Assembly (NCBI RefSeq): GCF_015207255.1
Contig: NZ_JADEXG010000059.1
Span: 1 to 32,594, forward strand
Length of the DNA: 32,594 nt
Direction: 5' to 3'
Source: Vasconcelosia minhoensis LEGE 07310
Lineage (GTDB): Bacteria > Cyanobacteriota > Cyanobacteriia > Phormidesmidales > Phormidesmidaceae
The notes below the pieces were generated by a model. That model did no database searches and had not been told where the DNA came from. It saw only the letters and a list, made by a program, of their open reading frames with translations. Each line of letters starts with the position of its first letter. Within the stretch, counting starts at the first letter, position 1. This document shows positions 23,980 to 25,415 of this stretch, in pieces. Both the position numbers and the translations under genes were made by a program.

Positions 23980-24054
23980 GATAGCGGCCAGAAGGGTTTA
24001 GCAAAATCGTTTAGCTAGAATGAGAAAGATCCGATAGCCCCCTTGCCGGAGCCT

Positions 24055-24852
24055 ATGACGCCGCCCACCGATGTAGAGACCGCAACAGAGTCACAGCTGA
24101 GCAATCAGCCCAATCGCGCCACCCAGTCCGAGGCATCGCTGGATGAGGTGCCCAACGACGTGGAAATGTCGCTGTTCGACCATTTAGAAGAGCTGCGTCA
24201 GCGCATCTTCTATGCGCTGATCGCGATCGCGGCGGGGGTGATTGGCTGCTTTACCGTAGTCAATCGGATTGTCGAGCTGCTAGAGGTGCCAGCCCAGGGC
24301 GCCAAATTTCTCCAGCTTTCGCCGGGCGAATATTTCTTTGTCTCGATCAAGGTCGCCGGCTACAGCGGCATTCTGATTGCCAGCCCTTTTCTGCTCTACC
24401 AGATTATCCAGTTTGTGCTACCGGGGCTGACCCGCCGCGAGCGTCGGCTGCTGGGTCCGATTGTGCTGGGCTCAAGCGTCCTGTTTTTCGCCGGGCTGGC
24501 CTTTGCCTACATCGCCCTGATCCCGGCCGCACTCAGCTTCTTTATCAGCTATGGGGCCGATGTGGTCGAGCAGCTCTGGTCGATCGATCGGTATTTTGAA
24601 TTTGTGCTGCTGCTGCTATTCAGCACCGGATTGGCCTTCCAGATCCCGGTCATTCAGCTGCTGCTCGGGCTTTTAGGCATTGTCAGCTCGCGGACAATGC
24701 TCTCGGGCTGGCGCTATGTTTTGCTGGGGGCGGCGGTACTGGGCGCAGTGCTGACGCCTTCTACCGACCCCATTACCCAGAGCCTGCTGGGCGGTGCTGT
24801 CCTCTTCCTGTACTTCAGCGGCGTGTTTTTGGTGAGAGCCATCGGCCGGTAG
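24055..24852 (+). CDS. tatC: Sec-independent protein translocase subunit TatC
   Basis: TatC is the receptor subunit of the twin-arginine translocase, moving folded proteins across the plasma and thylakoid membranes. The 265-residue product has an acidic N-terminal extension of about 40 residues, then the family motif [17 protein letters not shown]. Six membrane helices follow, with the typical [17 protein letters not shown] and FGLPGL-equivalent ([11 protein letters not shown]) segments and the conserved [10 protein letters not shown] near the C-terminus. The ATG at 24055 is chosen over an in-frame TTG at 24043; a GGAG lies close upstream. It follows rodZ by 75 bp on the same strand, so the transglycosylase, rodZ and tatC may form one transcript. 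No tatA/tatB gene is in the window. Confidence 0.95.
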
Positions 24853-24959
24853 CGCATTTTGTCAATCGAAACCATTAATTTATATTAAGTAGCCCCTGCC
24901 AGTTCAGAGGTGCAAATGTCAAAATGGATACAGACAAGAGATAAGTCTGTCGGTCACCC

Positions 24960-25044
24960 TTTCTGGCACCCTTTCTGGATTTTTGGCTTTAGCGCCTGTA
25001 GTGACTTCTGAGAGATCAGAAAAGAGGCCAGAAAAGACCAGAAA
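24960..25044 (+). repeat. Imperfect long inverted repeat in leader of the 41-residue gene
   Basis: TTTCTGG occurs twice (24960-24966, 24972-24978) and its complement CCAGAAA twice (25028-25034, 25038-25044), so the two arms could fold into a two-part stem around a 49-base loop. Within the loop, TTCTGA (25006-25011) and TCAGAA (25016-25021) form a perfect 6-bp hairpin with a GAGA loop. It lies in the 311-bp gap between tatC and the small gene at 25164. It could shape the leader RNA of that gene or end the tatC transcript; there is no T-run. Confidence 0.5.
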
Positions 25045-25098
25045 TCAGGGCGGAAGTAGGGAGCTCCCCGAAGGAACGCGCCTCTTTATCTGAACCCC

Positions 25099-25146
25099 AT
25101 CATCTGCATTCCCCCTATCATCTGCATTCCCCCTATCATCTGCATT
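25099..25146 (+). repeat. 18-bp tandem repeat, three copies
   Basis: ATCATCTGCATT recurs at 25099-25110, 25117-25128 and 25135-25146, part of an 18-bp unit (TATCATCTGCATTCCCCC). The array ends four bases before the ribosome site of the small gene at 25164. There are no unique spacers, so it is not a CRISPR. Slippage or a regulatory array are both possible. Confidence 0.85.
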
Positions 25147-25163
25147 CCTTGGAGGCGAAATCC

Positions 25164-25289
25164 ATGAATACCGAACTTTTAAATGGTCTAGAGGTCATTT
25201 TCACCATTAGCGCGATGACCGCAGTGCTCTGTCCGATCTTTTGCTGGGTTCTACCCAACCGGGCTCGGGCCGGCAGTGGCGCCGTCTAG
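25164..25289 (+). CDS. 41-residue single-helix membrane protein, unknown
   Basis: This is a short gene with strong signs of being real: a GGAGG ribosome site at 25151-25155, nine bases before the ATG, and a clean terminator 65 bases after the stop. The protein is MNTELLNGLE, then one hydrophobic helix at about residues 11-30 containing CPIFCW (Cys23 and Cys27), then a basic tail NRARAGSGAV. By the positive-inside rule the C-terminus would be cytoplasmic. The size and layout are like those of the small accessory subunits of photosystems, cytochrome b6f or NDH-1, but it does not match any I know (PsbX, PsaI, PsaM, PetG, PetM were considered). The long structured leader suggests regulated expression. 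Confidence 0.7.
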   Translation: MNTELLNGLEVIFTISAMTAVLCPIFCWVLPNRARAGSGAV

Positions 25290-25354
25290 TTGCGGATAGC
25301 GACATAACCGGCTAGCCAAGCCGTCAAGAAGCCGTCAATTTATCCATCAATAGT

Positions 25355-25386
25355 GAAGCGTTAGATCGATAGCGCTTCGCTTTTTT
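25355..25386 (+). terminator. Rho-independent terminator after the 41-residue gene
   Basis: GAAGCG (25355-25360) pairs with CGCTTC (25373-25378); three further pairs, one a wobble, extend the stem to nine around a GATCGA loop. A T6 run follows two bases later (25381-25386). The gene on the opposite strand ends at 25401, so it may serve transcription in the plus direction only. Confidence 0.75.
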
Positions 25387-25415
25387 ATGAGGCCCCGGGT
25401 TTATGAGGCCCCGGG
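25384..25415. repeat. Perfect 16-bp tandem duplication covering a stop codon
   Basis: TTTATGAGGCCCCGGG occurs at 25384-25399 and directly again at 25400-25415. The second copy holds the stop and last codons of the glycosyltransferase gene on the minus strand; the first copy is a silent leftover downstream of that stop. It looks like a recent local duplication. Confidence 0.9.

Follow-up and report, generated by a model that had tools for sequence, protein, structure and literature searches.

Sequence comparison identifies a 41-residue gene of Vasconcelosia minhoensis LEGE 07310 as a real, conserved, and previously unclassified gene for a single-helix membrane protein of cyanobacteria, and it identifies the leader of this gene as a glutamine riboswitch, a divergent homologue of RF01739 rather than a standard member. 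The gene lies in a stretch of 32,594 nucleotides (contig NZ_JADEXG010000059.1), referred to here as the window. We consider it likely that it constitutes a one-gene unit with a conserved product, a leader derived from a glutamine riboswitch, and expression in nitrogen excess, and the cell probably makes the 41-residue protein only when nitrogen is plentiful. The first-pass annotation of the window had proposed that the gene might encode an as yet undescribed small membrane protein controlled at the RNA level; both parts of that proposal held, given that the open reading frame (ORF) is conserved without belonging to a classified family and that its leader is a glutamine riboswitch.

The coding sequence (MNTELLNGLEVIFTISAMTAVLCPIFCWVLPNRARAGSGAV) occupies positions 25164 to 25289 of the forward strand, with its ATG at 25164 and its stop codon at 25287 to 25289. 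The Shine-Dalgarno (SD) sequence GGAGG (25151 to 25155) is spaced 8 nt from the ATG and forms part of the conserved, extended element GGAGGCG (25151 to 25157, forward strand). A TTG start at 25149 was rejected, as the SD sequence falls within that frame and homologues begin at the ATG. The transcript ends at an intrinsic terminator at 25352 to 25386 (forward strand), a hairpin of 12 pairs with a 6-nt loop (25352 to 25381) followed by a T run. The upstream gene (24043 to 24852), which we take from its sequence to encode TatC, ends immediately ahead of the leader, and the downstream gene, which is glycosyltransferase-like, is on the opposite strand; we therefore regard the small ORF as a one-gene transcription unit. 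The ribosome site, long inverted repeat, 6-bp hairpin, 18-bp array, and terminator were all present where the first-pass annotation had placed them. Immediately past the terminator, a perfect 16-bp tandem duplication (TTTATGAGGCCCCGGG) occupies 25384 to 25415.

In a search of 59 whole genomes of relatives, homologues were found in 47 at E ≤ 1, with E < 1e-5 in over 20 of these 47, and their frames are nearly all open. This was the search that the first-pass annotation had recommended, and neither of the outcomes it had named as telling against the gene, lack of conservation in relatives or a frame broken by stops, occurred. A scan of named genomes yielded 40 loci in Leptolyngbya, Nodosilinea, Phormidium, Laspinema, Spirulina, Coleofasciculus, and others, so that the gene is distributed among dozens of filamentous cyanobacteria; its spread is nevertheless patchy, with a protein of this type in 17 of 292 genomes sampled across the phylum, and no homologues were found on viral contigs. 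By its pattern of substitution the ORF is under purifying selection, with variabilities of 0.29, 0.14, and 0.49 at codon positions 1, 2, and 3 (32-codon core, 36 distinct sequences) and a pooled pN/pS of 0.44 (sequence pairs with pS below 0.6).

The earlier call of a single helix agrees with a hydropathy of 2.17 over a 19-residue stretch and with an AlphaFold2 model of one helix at residues 3 to 29 (mean pLDDT, 81.7). The invariant core of the protein is P-x3-W, with P24 and W28 unchanged in a wider set of 26 sequences, and the helix ends in [VI]LP[DN]R in most members. The emphasis that the first-pass annotation had placed on a CxxxC pair did not survive the comparison, because the pair is not conserved: both cysteines are kept in just 2 of 16 close homologues. 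We therefore rejected CxxxC as a functional motif, and the family does not have the conserved cysteine pair of a redox or metal-binding membrane protein of that kind. Across 24 proteins, residues 1 to 10 include 28 D/E and no K/R, and 33 K/R lie after the helix. As the positive-inside rule relates K/R placement to the cytoplasmic side, the C terminus is predicted to be cytoplasmic. The protein is without a match in Pfam, NCBIfam, or the PDB, and it lacks a DUF4278 domain by the Pfam search. Single-sequence matches to DUF2749, TrbK, and photosystem I (PSI) subunit VIII (E values of 0.03 to 0.7) were dismissed as chance.

The aptamer, with its invariant CGGAAGUA and GAAGGAACGC, was placed at 24949 to 25082 (forward strand) on the basis of a lineage covariance model and pair counts. 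This model (R1), built from the leaders of 23 relatives with the window left out, found the window leader at 24949 to 25106 with 39.6 bits and an E value of 4.5e-11, a rough figure given the approximate calibration; elsewhere in the window, the best unrelated match scored 6 bits. Rfam at its gathering cutoff gave no match anywhere in the window, and at a lax threshold RF01739 aligned to 25043 to 25082 with 16.1 bits, compared with a gathering score of 35. The low score reflects the separation of the two aptamer arms: the 5′ arm sits some 120 nt upstream of its 3′ counterpart, and the Rfam alignment misses it. The CGGAAGUA ... GAAGGAACGC core with its P3 hairpin, by which RF01739 is recognized, is exact at 25051 to 25079. 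P1 (24951 to 24955/25074 to 25078, CGGUC/GAACG) forms four of five pairs, with one G·A mismatch (G24953·A25076); P2 (24957 to 24960/25047 to 25050, CCCU/AGGG) forms its first four pairs and has enlarged arms; and P3 pairs 25059 to 25061 with 25067 to 25069 (GGG/CCC). An alternative 5′ arm of P1 at about 24899 to 24905 (AGTTCA) was rejected, as it lacks a P2 downstream and the model places the arm at 24951. Directly upstream of the small ORF, RF01739 scored above the cutoff (35 to 54 bits) at 13 of the 20 homologue loci. Across 24 leaders the aptamer and platform are 96.7% paired, with 26 double-change cells compared with 8.1 in shuffles, and the covarying helices are P2 (U-A to C-G) and P3 (G-C to A-U).

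The element GGAGGCG is complementary to, and can pair with, a CGCCUC sequence immediately 3′ to the aptamer. This anti-SD sequence (25079 to 25084, forward strand) begins at the last conserved nucleotide of the aptamer. GAGGCG (the SD sequence plus its 3′ extension) does not vary among the 24 leaders, and complementary CGCC(U/C)C follows directly 3′ of P1, with complementarity retained in 92.8% of cells. Because this helix is conserved and not covarying, we infer its role as a mask of the ribosome site.

An NtcA-like site, GTCAAAATGGATAC (GTN10AC; 24918 to 24931, forward strand), lies 19 nt ahead of the aptamer. The consensus for NtcA is GTAN8TAC, and the site in the window, GTCN8TAC, is imperfect; it is weak on its own in the window and strong in relatives. 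Among leaders of one-helix peptides, 19 of 37 have the strict motif in the 60 nt preceding the aptamer, mostly at distances of 6 to 20 nt, and among those of DUF4278 genes 90 of 113 have it there, at distances of 9 to 22 nt. Random 330-nt windows taken from the loci contain the motif in 6.6% of cases, and as the sequences are related and not independent, these counts do not translate into clean P values. The strict motif also occurs in 13 of 34 leaders classed as being without a riboswitch, one of which (L005) was misclassified through the scripted choice of start codon. So close to the aptamer, such a site would lie across part of the promoter, an arrangement consistent with NtcA acting as a repressor, as it does on the gif genes when nitrogen is short (PMC6316151; PMC11288750).

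The leader in the window also carries features of its own. A 12-nt tandem duplication (CACCCTTTCTGG; 24955 to 24978, forward strand), together with copies of CCAGAAA at 25028 to 25034 and 25038 to 25044, enlarges P2. The long inverted repeat reported by the first-pass annotation is this enlarged P2 (TTTCTGG/CCAGAAA, 24960 to 24966/25038 to 25044); a second inverted pair is nested within it (24972 to 24978/25028 to 25034), and the 6-bp hairpin TTCTGA/TCAGAA lies at 25006 to 25021. Three 18-bp direct repeats that are 94 to 100% identical lie between the aptamer and the SD sequence (25095 to 25148, forward strand); none occur in relatives, and the distance from aptamer to ATG is 84 nt, about twice the 33 to 41 nt of relatives. 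Folding energy was discarded as a signal, as it was not unusual compared with that of shuffled sequence (z = +0.8 for the leader and −0.9 for the whole unit); the significance of the leader comes from homology and not from free energy.

These peculiarities bear on whether the riboswitch is decaying in this genome, in which case the protein would still be made but would no longer respond to glutamine. The P1 mismatch is unique among the 24 leaders, the five-pair P1 being perfect in all 23 aligned relatives, and it comes with the enlarged P2, the tripled 18-bp linker, and the subthreshold Rfam score. Some homologues have no recognizable riboswitch upstream, and the leaders of some (such as L063 and L067) are clearly degraded with the ORF intact, which indicates that the ORF can outlive its riboswitch. 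However, CGGAAGUA, P3, GAAGGAACGC, the anti-SD sequence, and the SD sequence are letter-perfect in the window, and the first four P2 pairs form. We regard such decay as rather unlikely. Given the mismatch and the score, the window copy may be weakened, and with its doubled linker it may respond weakly or not at all, whereas the riboswitches of relatives look intact.

The type 1 glutamine riboswitch of gifB in Synechocystis (glnA motif, RF01739) has a homologous aptamer core, the same P1-to-P3 layout, the same position in the 5′ untranslated region, and likewise an upstream NtcA-type site, and by analogy a similar activation logic is expected of the window copy. The window copy differs in its single P1 mismatch, larger P2, and longer linker, and its target is an unrelated membrane peptide, not a DUF4278/IF17 protein. 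Binding of glutamine to this aptamer class activates IF17 translation from gifB (PMC6316151). As the whole control region is homologous to that of gifB, the 41-residue gene should be silent in starvation and expressed as glutamine rises. During nitrogen starvation, NtcA would block the promoter, and with little glutamine CGCCUC would pair with GAGGCG and hide the ribosome site. Ammonium would then raise glutamine, the aptamer would close and take up its 3′ tail (C25079), and the freed SD sequence would permit translation. The helix would insert with its acidic N terminus outside and its Arg-bearing C terminus in the cytoplasm. Less certainly, the invariant Pro and Trp and the LP-[DN]-R edge might bind a membrane partner, and the protein might throttle nitrogen import or assimilation, as the soluble IF7 and IF17 do with glutamine synthetase.

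In this genome and in its relatives, DUF4278 (IF17-like) genes have the same layout of NtcA-type site, aptamer, and maskable SD sequence as the 41-residue gene. The window genome contains two other RF01739 matches, both driving DUF4278 proteins (57 and 142 aa, IF17-like). Within the family to which this genome belongs, riboswitch matches regardless of target precede 90 DUF4278 genes, 28 one-helix peptides (type B included), 3 other small membrane proteins, and 3 others, targets having been picked by a script on SD sequence and length, so that a few assignments may be wrong. Glutamine aptamers in available cyanobacterial genomes were previously associated mainly with DUF4278 genes (PMC6316151), whereas in this family unclassified one-helix membrane peptides make up about a quarter of the targets sampled. 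Other families of the class contributed 32 DUF4278 genes, 13 other small membrane proteins, and 19 others; the 13 mostly belong to an unrelated family of 68 to 75 aa with two helices, and several of the 19 are IF7-like by eye. These families add further riboswitch-driven small membrane proteins.

Given the predicted coregulation with glutamine synthetase inactivators and the conserved helix, the likeliest reading of the protein's role, which we offer tentatively and by analogy, is that of a membrane protein that regulates nitrogen import or assimilation. IF17/IF7 and the short DUF4278 proteins are likewise small, share the switch and the genomes, and are likewise expected to appear on nitrogen upshift, but they are soluble, whereas the protein described here has a transmembrane helix and no detectable similarity to them. 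The downstream-peptide motif of marine picocyanobacteria (RF01704, type 2 glutamine riboswitch) is also a glutamine-sensing leader before a tiny ORF, but it is a different aptamer class, and its ORFs of 17 to 100 aa are reported to be of the DUF4278 type (PMC6316151), not single-helix membrane peptides. SliP4 of Synechocystis (37 aa) and other cyanobacterial small membrane proteins are similar in size and in likely membrane location; high light induces SliP4, which functions in cyclic electron flow, and it is by this description (PMC12850537), not by sequence, that we set it apart. The literature searched described no nitrogen-regulated or riboswitch-controlled small membrane protein, although the primary papers of 2018 (NAR) and 2011 (RNA Biology) could mention one.

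The protein could instead be a small accessory subunit of PSI, PSII, cytochrome b6f, or NDH-1, with its amount set by nitrogen status; it was with these complexes that the first-pass annotation had suggested looking for copurification. Its size, single helix, and cyanobacterial distribution are similar to those of such subunits, small helices are common in these complexes, and 1 of 16 members matched PSI subunit VIII, although not significantly (E = 0.69). The family profile, however, matched no PDB chain even at an E value of 10 and no Pfam family, and no similarity to solved or named small subunits of these four complexes was found, in keeping with the earlier failure to assign the peptide to any known photosynthetic subunit. 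The presence of the gene in 17 of 292 genomes is also unlike that of a core subunit, and its control is that of nitrogen-excess genes. We thus consider a tuning subunit of a photosynthetic complex unlikely, and less likely than a regulator of nitrogen import or assimilation; most likely the protein is a small membrane regulator made in nitrogen excess and not a photosystem subunit. That the ORF is a leader peptide, or its RNA a dual-function regulator, with a protein that does nothing is highly improbable despite the position of a short ORF downstream of a structured leader, given that the transcript stops at its own terminator with the next gene on the other strand and that the ORF is under purifying selection with residues invariant across families.

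No conserved neighborhood naming a partner for the proposed membrane regulator was found across lineages; gene neighbors vary, so they give no pointer to a partner, and only local clusters occur, for example a gene family that lies downstream on the opposite strand in the Nodosilinea group. It is possible, although speculative, that riboswitch-induced membrane microproteins form a second arm of the glutamine-triggered shutdown and throttle nitrogen uptake or another membrane complex, with the 41-residue family, the related type B peptide, and the unrelated two-helix family as its members. The riboswitch provides proteins of a class that genome annotation usually misses with a named regulatory signal, and it offers a new, directly testable entry into the cyanobacterial response to a glutamine surge.

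Several further targets were observed behind glutamine riboswitches. The type B one-helix peptides (e.g., MSSSVFTTTELIAVISLYCIAFCPILCWVLSQK...) occur at L050, L054, L138, L156, L157, L175, and L206, and types A and B coexist in some genomes. The unrelated family of 68 to 75 aa, in which two hydrophobic stretches are predicted, directly follows the riboswitch in other cyanobacterial families (L238, L245, L252, L258, L260, L262, L265, L266, and L271) and has no significant Pfam match in the two members scanned. Other small soluble proteins of the FDFDLWA and QWQTYxELELxP types (L239, L241, L244, L251, and L263) likewise gave no Pfam match in the two scanned. In the reports consulted, the switch is described for gifB/DUF4278 genes only, and here it also lies upstream of short proteins that are IF7 (gifA)-like by sequence (L217, L223, L225, L227, L229, and L233). 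At L144, L159, and L170, three glutamine riboswitches follow in succession about 300 nt apart, and at L159 and L170 each of the three is followed by its own 56-aa DUF4278 gene.
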